Shown: piece by piece, positions 9,292 to 15,853 of the stretch
How the letters are laid out: every line of letters starts with the position of its first letter
Numbering within the stretch: position 1 is the stretch's first letter
Origin: Alphaproteobacteria bacterium
Lineage (GTDB): Bacteria; Pseudomonadota; Alphaproteobacteria; Micavibrionales; CSBR16-224
Assembly: GCA_021775895.1 (NCBI GenBank)
Contig: JAJFGX010000099.1
Location: 1-38,566 of the forward strand
Reading direction: 5' to 3'
Length of the DNA: 38,566 nucleotides
Notes under the pieces: generated by a model
Database searches by the model: none
What the model saw: the letters and a program-made list of their open reading frames with translations, nothing else
Told to the model about the DNA's origin: nothing
Made by a program: the position numbers and the translations under genes

Positions 9292-9319
9292 TTGACAATA
9301 TAGTATCTATGAGTATATT
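9292..9319 (+). promoter_or_regulatory. Sigma70 promoter of tRNA-Val
   Basis: A perfect TTGACA is followed after 16 bases by TATATT. The predicted start lies about 10 bases before the mature tRNA end. Confidence 0.7.
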
Positions 9320-9334
9320 TCTTAAATTAGATGT

Positions 9335-9409
9335 GGGTGTATAGCTCAGCGGGAGAGCACTTCGTTGACATCGAAGGGGTCACTGGTTCAATCCCAGTTA
9401 CGCCCACCA
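9335..9409 (+). tRNA. tRNA-Val (GAC)
   Basis: A 75-base cloverleaf has acceptor GGGTGTA paired with TACGCCC, then discriminator A and encoded CCA. Anticodon stem CTTCG/CGAAG encloses the loop TTGACAT, giving anticodon GAC. The T loop is TTCAATC. Confidence 0.96.
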
Positions 9410-9454
9410 TTTGTTTTTCATTTTTAATTTTGTGATTATGCTTGAGGTTATATA

Positions 9455-9613
9455 ATGGCTAGTAAAACCTATGTAGTGCGTGTGGTGTATAAAAATGAAA
9501 CTATCGAAGTTCATGAATTTAAGAATAAGAAAAAAGCCCTATATGCTAGAGATAAATTTCGAAAACTAGAAACCGTTGAATCAGCAAAGATGCGTCTTGC
9601 TGCTGATGAGTAG
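9455..9613 (+). CDS. Small protein of unknown function, 52 aa
   Basis: The frame begins MASKTYVVRVVYKNETIEVHE and ends MRLAADE. GAGG stands 7 bases before the ATG. The pattern suggests two beta strands followed by a lysine- and arginine-rich helix (NKKKALYARDKFRKL), as in a small compact domain. It starts 45 bases after tRNA-Val and may be read from the same promoter. I recognise no family. Confidence 0.55.
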   Translation: MASKTYVVRVVYKNETIEVHEFKNKKKALYARDKFRKLETVESAKMRLAADE

Positions 9614-9658
9614 AAAAAGCTCATTAATTGTTACTTTATGTCTCAAATGATAAAAATC

Positions 9659-9687
9659 TTGACATTATGTTGTTTTTATAGTATATT
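9659..9687 (+). promoter_or_regulatory. Sigma70 promoter of the beta-carbonic anhydrase gene
   Basis: TTGACA and TATATT are separated by 17 bases. The start is predicted near 9694, about 23 bases before the ATG. Confidence 0.7.
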
Positions 9688-9716
9688 TCACGTAATATTG
9701 TTTATTTTTAGGGTGT

Positions 9717-10331
9717 ATGTTAATGGTATCTAGTAACGTTTTGAAGAAGCTAACAGATGGATTCGAAGTATTCCGTAAGGAAAATTATGAAGTGAATCCA
9801 GAGCGTATGGCAAGGCTTATTAAAGATGGGCAAAGCCCAGAAGCTTTGGTCATTGCATGCAGTGATTCTAGAAGTTGCCCTGAAAGTGTCTTTGATACTG
9901 AGCCTGGTGATATTTTTGTTAGTCGCCATATTGCCGCTTTAGTGCCACCCTACGATGCCTCTGATAATGATAATACTATTGCCGCCAGCATTGAGTTTGC
10001 TGTAATGACTTTAGAGGTTAAGCATATTATAGTTGTTGGGCATACCCATTGTGGAGGAATACAGGCTCTTGCTCAAAACGTGCAAAGTGGTGCTGTTGGT
10101 AGCTTAATACAGCGGGCTCGTGAGATTAGAGAGATAGTCCAGCAAAAATCTGATAAACCACTAGATAATGCTGATACTATAAAAAAAATGGAATTGGAAA
10201 GCATAATTTGGAGCTTCAATAACTTAAAAAACTACCCATGCGTAAAAAAAGCAATAAAAAATGATAAATTATCAATACATGGCTGGCAATTTGATATGGA
10301 ATATGGTACAATGTTAGAGTATGCTCCGTAA
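9717..10331 (+). CDS. Beta-class carbonic anhydrase, 204 aa
   Basis: The enzyme interconverts CO2 and bicarbonate using one zinc. The zinc ligands are visible as C48 in CSDSR, and H109 and C112 in GHTHCGG. The catalytic Asp-Arg pair is D50/R52. The LVPPY and AASIEFAVMTLEVKHIIVVGH segments also fit the beta family. The usual R-N-A-x-N stretch reads RHIAALVPP here, a small departure. Length is normal. ATG at 9717 follows AGGGTG, and a second in-frame ATG lies two codons later. The paralogue gene at 10358 follows after 26 bases, so the three genes up to 11951 may be co-transcribed. Confidence 0.93.
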   Translation: MLMVSSNVLKKLTDGFEVFRKENYEVNPERMARLIKDGQSPEALVIACSDSRSCPESVFDTEPGDIFVSRHIAALVPPYDASDNDNTIAASIEFAVMTLEVKHIIVVGHTHCGGIQALAQNVQSGAVGSLIQRAREIREIVQQKSDKPLDNADTIKKMELESIIWSFNNLKNYPCVKKAIKNDKLSIHGWQFDMEYGTMLEYAP

Positions 10332-10357
10332 ATACTTAAAATTAGAGTTGTAAAGTG

Positions 10358-11143
10358 ATGGAAACAAACAAGAATTGGAAAATCGAACTGTGTGAAGAGA
10401 AGCTTGAAATATTAGGTTCTAGTTTACTTTTTGCTGGCAAAAAGCCGTCTCATTCTTTTTTGAGGTTAAAAAATGATCAGGATGAAGTCGTTGGTGAGCT
10501 GCATGGCGGAGCTTTAGATCAAGCAACTGGAGACTTTGGAGAAATGAAGTTTAAGTTATCTACTGTTTTTGACCAGTTAGCAGAAAATGCTATGGCACAT
10601 GTAGAAGAGAATTTAATGGATATTTTTAAACCTATGGCAAAAAATAAAATAAGAAAAGCTGTTGATAAAATAAGAAAACGTAGCCAATCAGAAGAGAGTA
10701 AATTAAGGGTTTCTAGTAGATTTGGAGATTTTATTGAGAGTCGCAATGTTGATGCGGTTATGGAACTTAAAAGCCTACCTGAAAAAGAAATTATGGTTTT
10801 ATGGGATCAGGCCTTAGGCTTTGCTGAGGAGATTAATCATGCAGATATTGAATATAGACCAGTATCACTTGCAGCTATAGCACAGAATTGTCACTCTGTT
10901 TCAATACTTTTGGCTCAAGTTATTTCAGGAAAGAAAATAACACCAGAATCAAGAACAGATAGAACTTTTGCAATGCCAGGGGCTGATAATGATATTAAGG
11001 AGAAGATATACGGTAATAAAAATCGAACTCTTCAAAAAGACACACCTAATTTACTGGTTACGTCTATAGAACACTCTATCTTAATGAAACATGATAAAGT
11101 TAATAGTAGCATAAGAAGATCATCCATAAGAAATCAGCCTTAA
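10358..11143 (+). CDS. Unrecognised protein, first of a tandem pair (SHSFLRL/NCHS family), 261 aa
   Basis: No signal peptide or membrane helix is seen. Blocks shared with the next gene are NWKIELCEE (residues 6-14), PSHSFLRLKN (30-39), VVGELHGGALDQATGDFG (44-61), INHADIEYRPVSL (about 156-168), QNCHSVS (C178) and a TFAMPGAD tail. The middle (about 80-120) is lysine-rich and helical. A conserved His in a strand-like N-terminal segment and a C-terminal N-C-H-S resemble the His-first, Cys-last order of permuted NlpC/P60 (LRAT-like) papain-fold enzymes. That is inference from motif order only, and a non-enzymatic role is equally possible. A GTG directly precedes the ATG. The ribosome site is weak. 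Confidence 0.8.
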   Translation: METNKNWKIELCEEKLEILGSSLLFAGKKPSHSFLRLKNDQDEVVGELHGGALDQATGDFGEMKFKLSTVFDQLAENAMAHVEENLMDIFKPMAKNKIRKAVDKIRKRSQSEESKLRVSSRFGDFIESRNVDAVMELKSLPEKEIMVLWDQALGFAEEINHADIEYRPVSLAAIAQNCHSVSILLAQVISGKKITPESRTDRTFAMPGADNDIKEKIYGNKNRTLQKDTPNLLVTSIEHSILMKHDKVNSSIRRSSIRNQP

Positions 11144-11234
11144 ACTTAAAAATATATTAATATCTATTTGATATAATTTAGGTATAGAAAAAGAGCAGAA
11201 CTGGAAAATCGAACTATGTGAGGAGGGGCTAGAT

Positions 11235-11951
11235 GTGCCCGGCTCTGGATTGATGTTTGGAGGTAAAGAGCCTTCACACTCTTTCTTACGTTTAAAAAAT
11301 CATCTTGGACAAGTTGTCGGGGAAATACATGGAGGTGCCTTAGATCAAGCAACTGGCGATTTTGGACAGATGAAAATTAAGTTATCTTCTTTATTTAGTC
11401 AGCTTGCTAAATATGTCAAGGTTGGATTAGAGAAAAACTTGTCTAATAGTCTTGATCCAAAAATGAAAGCTAAAATATATGAAGTAGCAAGTAAGATTGA
11501 AATAGGCGCCAAAAAAGAAGAAAATAAATTAAAAGTTGGCAGCAAGTTCGGTTTATGTATAAGTCCATCTAGAGCTGATGTTACTATGGAATTGGCCAGT
11601 AAATCTGAAGAAAAAGTTATGAAAGTATGGAAAAAAGCCTTAGATAGAGCGGATAAAATTAATCATGCAGATATAGAGTATAGGCCTATATCACTTGTAG
11701 ATTTGGCACAAAATTGTCATTCCGTTTCAATGCTTTTGGCTAAAGTGGTTACAGGCAATGTAGTGACAGCAGAATCAAGAGTTGACCAGACATTTGCAAT
11801 GCCTGGTGCAGATACTAATATAGAAACTAGTTTTGCTAGTTCTAGTAGTCGTTTCTACAATACAGAAGCCACTGAAGAAAAAAACAATCTTAGCGAGTTG
11901 CATGACAAGGTAAATTTCAGTATAAGAAAAAGCATGTCACCTTCTTTTTAA
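11235..11951 (+). CDS. Second tandem paralogue of the SHSFLRL/NCHS family, start region altered, about 238 aa
   Basis: It is collinear with the upstream gene: EPSHSFLRLKN, VVGEIHGGALDQATGDFG, INHADIEYRPISL, QNCHSVS (C161) and TFAMPGAD are all kept, while the region after the last block diverges (SFASSSSRFYN). Homology extends 5' to 11184 through NWKIELCEE, but the codon aligned with the first copy's ATG is ATA (11184-11186), and no ATG, GTG or TTG lies between the upstream in-frame TGA and 11235. GTG at 11235 follows GAGGAGGGG with 6-base spacing, so I choose it. This drops 17 N-terminal residues. Starting at ATA is the alternative. TATAAT at 11172-11177 may be a -10 box. Confidence 0.7.
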   Translation: MPGSGLMFGGKEPSHSFLRLKNHLGQVVGEIHGGALDQATGDFGQMKIKLSSLFSQLAKYVKVGLEKNLSNSLDPKMKAKIYEVASKIEIGAKKEENKLKVGSKFGLCISPSRADVTMELASKSEEKVMKVWKKALDRADKINHADIEYRPISLVDLAQNCHSVSMLLAKVVTGNVVTAESRVDQTFAMPGADTNIETSFASSSSRFYNTEATEEKNNLSELHDKVNFSIRKSMSPSF

Positions 11952-12012
11952 TTAATTATATTTCTTTTTATTAATATCAGCTATAGTGGCTATTATTAAT
12001 GGAGAGAAAGTA

Positions 12013-12258
12013 ATGGATTTAGTAACAGCGCTTGCAACATATTTTTTAATTTGGTGGATAACTTTATTTCTAGTCTTGCCTAGAGGCGGGGTTGAACCGT
12101 TAGATAAGCCTGAGGCTGGTCATGAAGTTGGAGCACCTGCCTCTCCAAAAATTAAGCAGAAATTTATTTGGAATAGTATACTAGCAGGAATAGTCTGGGG
12201 TATTGCTTATAGCTTGATTTTATTGTTTGATTTTAATCTGAGAGATGCTTTGCCATGA
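12013..12258 (+). CDS. DUF1467 family membrane protein, 81 aa
   Basis: This small inner-membrane protein has two predicted helices: TALATYFLIWWITLFLVLP (about residues 5-23) and an SILAGIVWGIAYSLILLF segment near the C-terminus, joined by a polar loop with GHEVGAPASPKI. The layout and the WW-x-x-LF-x-x-LP-x-G and G-A-P motifs match DUF1467, an alphaproteobacterial family of unknown function often encoded just before proS, as here. ATG at 12013 follows GGAGAG. An in-frame GTG at 11986 has no ribosome site. Its TGA overlaps the next ATG (ATGA). Confidence 0.85.
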   Translation: MDLVTALATYFLIWWITLFLVLPRGGVEPLDKPEAGHEVGAPASPKIKQKFIWNSILAGIVWGIAYSLILLFDFNLRDALP

Positions 12259-12794
12259 TTAAATATTACATTATATACCCAATATTTTTTATTTTGTTGA
12301 TGATGTTTTCATTTAAGGTTTTTGCAACTGAGATTGAAAAAAAGGCGGATTTATTCTCTGGTGATATGTGGCAGAGTTTCTGTGCTAAGTATTCAAAAAT
12401 TGGACAAGATAGCGTAGCTTATCAAGCTGGGGTTGATGCTTATGGTAGGCCAGTTGTCGGGGCAAACATCGGAGATGTTGCTGTAGAAACACCAATAGTG
12501 CCAGCAGTAATTCAACTTGATTTAGATGTTAATTTAATGGAGTATTTAGGAATCTCTATGCCTAAAGGTATATTGGGAGAGGCTAAAATAGGACATGTAC
12601 GTATTGAAAATGGGCAAGTATATTTTAATGATAAACAAGTTGCGGTGACAGAACATGGTGCTTTGCCCGATGTTTGTAAACGTATTAATCAGAATAAAAC
12701 GGAAATAGAAGATAAAGCAAGTTATACAGATTTAGAGATTTTAAAAAATAATGGAGCAGAAAATGACAGTACAACAAGCAAAGCAGAAGAATAA
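12255..12794 (+). CDS. Secreted protein of unknown function, 179 aa
   Basis: A signal peptide (IIYPIFFILLMMFSFKVFA, cleavage probably after FATE or nearby) directs the protein to the periplasm. The mature part has two cysteines (SFCAKY and PDVCKRI) that could pair and a central stretch (VPAVIQLDLDVNLMEYLGIS) that looks beta-rich. The polar C-terminus (ENDSTTSKAEE) overlaps the start of proS by 32 bases. The start overlaps the DUF1467 stop as ATGA, so translation is likely coupled. I recognise no family. Similar small exported proteins are sometimes found between DUF1467 and proS, but I cannot confirm orthology. Confidence 0.7.
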   Translation: MIKYYIIYPIFFILLMMFSFKVFATEIEKKADLFSGDMWQSFCAKYSKIGQDSVAYQAGVDAYGRPVVGANIGDVAVETPIVPAVIQLDLDVNLMEYLGISMPKGILGEAKIGHVRIENGQVYFNDKQVAVTEHGALPDVCKRINQNKTEIEDKASYTDLEILKNNGAENDSTTSKAEE

Positions 12795-14595: not shown

Positions 14596-15435
14596 ATGGG
14601 TGTTATAAAAGTGGATGGTTTAAGCCATATGGATAGCTATCTGGATAAGGGGGAGAATGAAAGTGAAGTGAAAGTTAGTAGCCTCACCTACCCACTGCAC
14701 AAGGCAAAACATGAATTTGCCAAGCATGCAGTACGTAATGATTTTCCTACAGCTTTTAAATTAGCCTTATTAAGTGCTTTTATAGTAGGTGGTGGAGTAT
14801 ATAGCTCCTTTGACAAAATGGAAGATAATATAAGTTCTGCACAAGCACCACAGGCTTTGGAGCGTATTGCAAATGAAATGACTTCTTTATCTAAACAAAA
14901 AGCTGATATTGATAATATTAGAATAGTGCAAGACTCGTTGGAGTTTGATTCTGGTCAGAGTGAGTTTTCTATGTCTGAGCTAGAAACTCTTGAAGATCGT
15001 GCTATTGATTCCTTTGAGAGAAGCGCTGGAAAAACACTAGACTATATTTTAGCAAGTAAACATTTATCAGAGACACAAATTAGTGATGCTTGGCATGATT
15101 TTTCTGAGAGAGTAGTAGAACCTGAAGATGTTCGTTTTAGATCGTTTAACAATAGCGATGATTATGATTTTGGCTTTGTGAAAGAGTGCAGGGCAGAGGC
15201 AACCTCATCATATACTGATAATCTATCAGATTGGAAGCTTGCGAGAAAGATAGATAGATGTATATCCTATGATAGTGGTTCTAATAGAGACATGGTATAC
15301 TATTCAGTAATGTCTGGTTTGTTTTCTACTCTCTCATTTATTCCTATTCTTGCTTCACTTGAAAGCGGCACAATGAAAAAATGGGCAAGAGAAAAGCCGA
15401 CTAAAAACAAGAAGCATAAATATGGCAAATACTAA
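14596..15435 (+). CDS. Membrane protein of unknown function with two end helices, 279 aa
   Basis: A cytoplasmic N-terminal stretch precedes a first helix (FKLALLSAFIVGGGVYSSF, about 54-72). A polar, acidic middle of about 165 residues follows, with a coiled-coil-like start (LERIANEMTSLSKQKADI), then a second helix (YYSVMSGLFSTLSFIPILASL, about 237-257) and a basic tail (KKWAREKPTKNKKHK). The middle probably lies in the periplasm and has two cysteines. GGAG precedes the ATG, and the gene has its own promoter. It overlaps the next gene by 14 bases, so the two are translationally coupled. No family is recognised. Confidence 0.7.
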   Translation: MGVIKVDGLSHMDSYLDKGENESEVKVSSLTYPLHKAKHEFAKHAVRNDFPTAFKLALLSAFIVGGGVYSSFDKMEDNISSAQAPQALERIANEMTSLSKQKADIDNIRIVQDSLEFDSGQSEFSMSELETLEDRAIDSFERSAGKTLDYILASKHLSETQISDAWHDFSERVVEPEDVRFRSFNNSDDYDFGFVKECRAEATSSYTDNLSDWKLARKIDRCISYDSGSNRDMVYYSVMSGLFSTLSFIPILASLESGTMKKWAREKPTKNKKHKYGKY

Positions 15436-15853
15436 TACAAAAATGATAGATGGCAAGCTTCATGAGTGCTTTAGTAGCGACATGGGGATTTTTGAATGGT
15501 ATGTTCATGAGCTTGGAGCAGAGAGCATTAATCATAAAAACATACATATTTTAGCAGATGGAGACTTTCTACGAGTTTTTAATGATTCTGCAAAAAAAGA
15601 AATTTTATATGAAGGCACTATAGATATGGCAGGCATTTATTGCACTGATGGCCCTTATTTGTTAACTGATGACTATGCTAAAAAAAGGGAAATGGATCAT
15701 GAAATCTGGCAGAGTTTATTTTCAGACAATAAGTTATCAACCTTGATAAGGGCAAAGGATTATCAAGAAATGCTGCAAGATAAAATTAAAGAAGAAAAGC
15801 TTACAAAGAAGCAAAATATGCGTGCATATATAAAAATGCGTAATTCTAAATAA
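15422..15853 (+). CDS. Soluble protein of unknown function, 143 aa
   Basis: The protein starts MANTNTKMIDGKLHECFSSD. It has no signal or membrane helix. A mixed alpha/beta N-terminal part (IFEWYVHELGAESINH, then ILADGDFLRVFNDSAKKEIL) is followed by a strongly charged helical C-terminus (YQEMLQDKIKEEKLTKKQNM). Its start lies inside the end of the preceding membrane protein gene, so the two are probably made together and may interact. I cannot assign a family. Confidence 0.65.
   Translation: MANTNTKMIDGKLHECFSSDMGIFEWYVHELGAESINHKNIHILADGDFLRVFNDSAKKEILYEGTIDMAGIYCTDGPYLLTDDYAKKREMDHEIWQSLFSDNKLSTLIRAKDYQEMLQDKIKEEKLTKKQNMRAYIKMRNSK

Follow-up and report, generated by a model that had tools for sequence, protein, structure and literature searches.

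The stretch of DNA analysed here, 'the window', is 38,566 nucleotides long and comes from an alphaproteobacterium of the order Micavibrionales. It carries two adjacent genes of the same orientation, A and B, whose products are 53% identical over nearly their full length (E = 3e-80 in a sequence search). The first-pass annotation of this DNA described the pair as tandem paralogues with conserved motifs, lying behind a beta-carbonic anhydrase gene. That description holds: both open reading frames are in place, the upstream gene has a Pfam match, and every motif quoted there (PSHSFLRLKN, VVGE(L/I)HGGALDQATGDFG, INHADIEYRP and QNCHSVS) occurs in both proteins. The drift that it noted in the middle and in the C-terminal tails is also found, the two proteins varying at residues 63–115 and in the tail. 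The genome of the window (G000; 2.0 Mb, 98.7% complete) was searched for further paralogues, and A and B are its only copies; the N-termini of both proteins were inspected for secretion signals, and no hydrophobic signal was seen in either. The features of the locus are collected in Table 1.

Table 1. Genes and predicted active-site features at the A–B locus (positions in the window; residue numbers refer to A)
Feature	Position	Strand	Evidence and remarks
Beta-carbonic anhydrase gene	9717–10331	+	PF00484 match (E = 4.6e-44); separated from A by 26 bp; locus context only
Gene A	10358–11143	+	ORF with ATG start, stop included, 261 aa; homologues; model
Gene A, layout			Predicted permuted papain-like core, about residues 5–210, then variable C-terminal tail; model pTM 0.65
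His32 codon (CAT)	10451–10453	+	Predicted general base; family alignment; start of strand beta-2 in the model
Glu47 codon (GAG)	10496–10498	+	Predicted third (polar) residue, His +15; invariant in alignment A7; C92-like spacing
Drifting helical insertion, residues 63–115	10544–10702	+	Between strands 3 and 4; A and B identical at 21 of 53 residues
Tyr166 codon	10853–10855	+	12 before Cys; invariant in alignment A7; most members have Tyr or Phe 12–14 residues ahead of the Cys
Asn177-Cys178 (NC motif)	10886–10891	+	Predicted nucleophile; N-terminus of helix 178–189; family alignment, model
Gene B, paralogue of A	11184–11951	+	ORF from GTG 11235; frame open from 11172
His32-equivalent of B (CAC)	11277–11279	+	Sequence; alignment with A
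Cys178-equivalent of B (TGT)	11715–11717	+	Sequence; alignment with A
DUF1467 gene	12013–12258	+	Downstream of B; opens a conserved DUF1467–small secreted protein–proS block

Codon comparison of A and B gives dN = 0.40 and dS = 1.49 over the whole of the genes (61 synonymous codon differences), and dN = 0.28 and dS = 1.37 over the core, a dN/dS of about 0.2. Because dN is so far below dS, we regard both genes, on the evidence of their codons, as being under purifying selection. The first-pass annotation had taken strict conservation of the motifs to suggest an active site. Codon constraint and the presence of all the motifs in both proteins bear out the conservation for the pair, but most of the motif residues are common to the pair only. 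Family-wide, the residues that persist are His32, Glu47 (in the Cys branch, defined below), Tyr or Phe at 166, Asn177, and Cys178 or a Ser in its place. The beginning of gene B is irregular. The codon opposite the ATG of A is ATA (11184–11186), and the frame contains no ATG, GTG or TTG between the stop before 11172 and the GTG at 11235, which is the first ordinary start. The codons on the 5' side of this GTG match those of A (NWKIELCEE, with synonymous changes only), and translation from it would remove strand 1 of the modelled fold. Either gene B starts at ATA, or it has recently lost its start, or the assembly is in error at this point.

The family to which A and B belong was suspected from the outset to be unrecognised, and this is borne out: neither protein matches any model in Pfam, NCBIfam or PADLOC, or any sequence in the PDB. 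Two candidate matches were discarded. A sortase, the best PDB profile match (E = 0.003), was rejected because the aligned residues exclude the motifs; phrog_9208 ('integrase'), which matches residues 137–221 of A (E = 9e-4), was set aside as it matches no other member and has no relative in phage records. Viral contigs contained no relative of A, A3 or the Ser branch. Among cellular genomes, a single-sequence search finds relatives in four others of the order, 31–43% identical over the matched stretches and 19–27% over the full-length alignment. A first profile search located the family in 17 of 142 genomes, and a second, wider profile found it in 38 of 135 genomes within the order (more than a quarter), in 8 of 385 across the class, and in 4 of 398 across the phylum; all of these counts include the genome of the window. 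MAGs labelled Micavibrio are among the sources of relatives. The distribution is thus patchy, comprising one order and scattered other proteobacteria.

The fold was modelled with AlphaFold for A (pTM 0.65, pLDDT 65) and for a trimmed homologue, L074 (pTM 0.71, pLDDT 69), both models resting on eight sequences. In the model of A, strands at residues 7–15, 31–38, 44–53, 115–122 and 133–140 are followed by helices at 142–162 and 178–189, and two further helices (67–85 and 92–110) form an insertion between strands 3 and 4. The order is the same in both models—strands 1–3, helical insertion, strands 4–5, long helix, Cys helix—and in both the His is at or beside the start of strand 2, the Glu in strand 3, and the Cys at or beside the start of the late helix. 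Structure prediction had been proposed as a check on the first-pass annotation; the two models place His and Cys as they are placed in permuted NlpC/P60 enzymes. When the L074 model is compared with known structures by VIA-align, the highest Z-scores are those of PPPDE1 (3ebq; Z 7.3, rmsd 5.0, 125 residues aligned), DeSI (2wp7; 7.0) and TseH (6.9), followed by CLN5 (6.6), Aichivirus 2A (6.4), the Bacillus cereus protein 3kw0 (5.5) and parechovirus 2A (3.8). Unrelated chains drop to 2.5, and everything above that value is permuted papain-like. For the A model the leading matches are TseH (7.2), PPPDE1 (6.3), DeSI (6.3) and CLN5 (5.8), and the other rows mostly match the helical insertion alone. 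All of these scores are below 8, and each is modest. VIA-align re-ranks Foldseek candidates only, so that nothing can be concluded from LRAT not appearing among the structural matches. Foldseek itself puts DeSI, CLN5 and TseH first for the L074 model, with non-significant E-values (best 0.036); plain Foldseek with the A model returned noise only, and a library of viral structures gave no significant match.

The predicted catalytic residues are spaced in a recognizable way. In most members of the Cys branch, the Glu follows the His by 14–16 residues, and an aromatic residue precedes the Cys by 12–14; in some distant members the latter is Phe. Of ten YiiX/C92 proteins measured from this order, nine have Glu at +15/16 and all have Tyr at -13, and the B. 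cereus enzyme BcPPNE has His49, Glu64 (+15), Tyr127 and Cys154 (PMC3142127). From its position, Tyr166 is the predicted equivalent of the conserved NlpC/P60 Tyr. What makes a permuted papain-like fold persuasive is that the structural lists converge on a single class of fold and that this residue pattern accompanies it, and we consider it very probable that A and B have both the fold and its catalytic set. The first-pass annotation had likened the His-first, Cys-last order to permuted NlpC/P60 (LRAT-like) proteins. The fold matches, the C92-like spacing of His, Glu, Tyr and Cys, and the joint loss of His and nucleophile described below support the permuted NlpC/P60 part; the likeness to LRAT is one of layout only, with no link in sequence.

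The nearest known counterparts differ from A and B in various ways. The YaeF/YiiX-like proteins (Peptidase_C92, PF05708; e.g. 3kw0) share with A the order His, Glu, Tyr, Cys, and a five-stranded sheet followed by helices (PMC3142127), but there is no similarity to the A/B family at the sequence or profile level, and A has its long helical insertion, such that His and Cys are separated by 146 residues, rather than the 77–79 of C92. The 'GD' motif given for strand 1 of NlpC/P60 cluster II (PMC10318531) is likewise absent from A, in which strand 1 is WKIELCEE. The models for Peptidase_C92, LRAT (PF04970) and PPPDE (PF05903) match none of 22 members examined, hhalign against ten C92 proteins does no better than its reversed control, and neither LRAT nor C92 genes were found in G000. 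The PPPDE/DeSI isopeptidases resemble A and B in predicted fold, with His first and Cys last; they differ in lacking any sequence match, and A and B have Glu where PPPDE1 has Phe (PMC3142127). LRAT/PLAAT and the picornaviral 2A H-NC proteins share the order H ... NC. The A/B family, unlike LRAT/PLAAT, has 'NCH(S/A/T)'; the motif typical of LRAT/PLAAT is 'NCEHF'. Human CLN5 (6r99), which has an acyl-transfer role, is alike in fold and unlike in being a lysosomal glycoprotein with no similarity to A or B in sequence. TseH (of the DUF6695 clade) and Tox-Act1 have the fold and the His–Cys pair; they are permuted NlpC/P60 effectors of type VI secretion systems (T6SS) with phospholipase activity (PMC12994826). 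Here, by contrast, no T6SS sheath gene was detected in the 135 genomes of the order that were scanned, the pair is without signal or immunity gene, and the proteins are without a Pfam match. Sequence searches and models together mark A and B as a new family of a known, predicted fold, with no sequence tie to LRAT, C92 or PPPDE.

Within the family, members differ at the position of the nucleophile. The residue following the conserved Asn is Cys in 19 of 44 distinct members, Ser in 16, and neither in 9. Among the 44 examined, the His is retained without exception in Cys and Ser members with an alignable N-terminal half; the acidic residue is mostly missing from the Ser branch. Profile comparison indicates that the Cys and Ser branches are homologous (profile–profile E = 4e-13, against 0.73 for the reversed control; pairwise E down to 2e-7). 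In a clade of nine members, Ser-Pro replaces Asn-Ser, and Tyr stands at the position of the His (the assignment being partly by eye). A quick tree unites all nine (support 90), so that the loss of His and nucleophile counts as one event rather than nine. They are probably dead versions that have been conserved. The clade consists of the short relatives L043, L061–L067 and L069 (central ORFs), which are spread across several genera of the order. In other alphaproteobacteria, Ser-branch domains are joined to additional modules: in L036 (1267–2346) to RTX calcium-binding repeats (E = 1.1e-21), and, weakly, in L035 (1411–2679) to a Hint domain (E = 9e-6, below the curated cut-off). These fusions hint at secreted uses of the Ser-branch relatives, some of which (L025, L024) begin, by eye, with Tat-like or lipoprotein-like signals. 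A single family, expanded in this order, might then hold working Cys enzymes such as those of the window, working Ser enzymes (the QNSNSV branch, mostly without the acidic residue and in some cases with export signals or the RTX fusion), and a conserved dead clade. We offer this picture tentatively. Were it correct, a change of nucleophile could be traced inside one family, and with Cys, Ser and dead forms side by side, the catalytic consequence of the substitution could be tested between relatives. Papain-like proteins with Ser in place of Cys were called 'especially intriguing and poorly explored' in a 2023 survey (PMC10318531). In addition, a testable active site can now be named for a family that the searched libraries do not contain.

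What might A and B do? We favor the interpretation, to which we assign a probability of roughly 60%, that both are cysteine enzymes built on a circularly permuted, papain-like domain of the NlpC/P60 type and act as acyl hydrolases or transacylases. By analogy with the fold class, His32, oriented by Glu47, would activate Cys178 at the head of its helix. The thiolate of Cys178 would attack an acyl carbonyl to form an acyl-cysteine intermediate, whose acyl group could then be released, as in YiiX, LRAT/PLAAT, TseH and CLN5: to water if the proteins are acyl hydrolases, amidases or thioesterases, and to an acceptor if they are transacylases. Candidate substrates include a lipid ester, a fatty-acyl amide, or an acylated protein. 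Lipid acyl groups are the substrates of the permuted LRAT, PLAAT, Tox-Act1 and TseH proteins (PMC12994826), whereas DeSI, also permuted, acts on isopeptides (PMC10318531). The predicted fold alone does not separate the two activities; acyl substrates are favored, being those on which the majority of known permuted members act. As to location, A and B probably act inside the cell, and we regard a cytoplasmic role in acyl transfer or hydrolysis as about an even bet. It is favored because neither protein has a signal sequence, and because secretion machinery of the kinds sought was not detected: the T6SS sheath (PF05591) is over the cut-off in none of 135 genomes of the order, with E. coli as a positive control, and VirB4 (PF03135), the marker used for type IV secretion systems (T4SS), is absent from G000 and its family.

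These same observations weigh against the foremost alternative, that A and B are effectors exported by a route that we have not recognized, with targets in the membranes or among the proteins of competitor, prey or host cells, in the manner of TseH or Tox-Act1. TseH is the best structural match of A, relatives have RTX repeats, possibly a Hint domain, and Tat-like or lipoprotein-like starts, and patchy distribution combined with tandem duplication would suit such a role. But these fusions belong to the distant Ser branch, and no conserved immunity-like neighbor accompanies the Cys members, so that with signal, T6SS and VirB4 all missing we think export unlikely. Less likely still is that A and B are DeSI (PPPDE)-type isopeptidases, or similar deconjugating enzymes, that act on a ubiquitin-like tag or some other protein modification. 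DeSI and PPPDE1 do head the VIA-align matches of the L074 model, and DeSI comes first in Foldseek; the Z-scores of DeSI, TseH and CLN5 are tied, however, leaving the fold with no choice to offer, and no ubiquitin-like, E1-like or JAB gene occurs among the scanned neighbors of the pair. Equally improbable is a chance look-alike, some other alpha/beta fold whose conserved His and Cys have a structural or metal-binding role: modest model confidence, the want of any sequence-level link to a papain-like family, and the missing 'GD' motif would allow it, but the loss of His and nucleophile together in one clade, the exchange of Cys and Ser at one site, the spacing of the tetrad, and the exclusively permuted papain-like identity of the domain-wide matches of both models speak against it.

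The acyl-enzyme interpretation receives no help from a conserved partner gene, as none was found: the homologous loci L003, L004, L005 and L077 have other neighbors. In the window (9300–12300), the DUF1467–proS block is preceded by a tRNA, the carbonic anhydrase gene, A and B. In relatives, the block instead has nuo genes, birA and an RNase J-like gene before it, the last two seen in G003 and G004 (genes named by eye). Since the 5' neighbors of the block differ in this way, the pair lies at a rearranged junction. Further along the window (14596–15853), between proS and a class II aldolase gene, are two adjacent ORFs of 279 and 143 aa with no significant Pfam or NCBIfam match. In two relatives, proS or its block is adjoined by serpin-like (by eye) and ankyrin-repeat-like proteins (L079, 3834–5216, minus strand; L082, 4074–5507, plus strand). 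Serpins are unusual in such bacteria.
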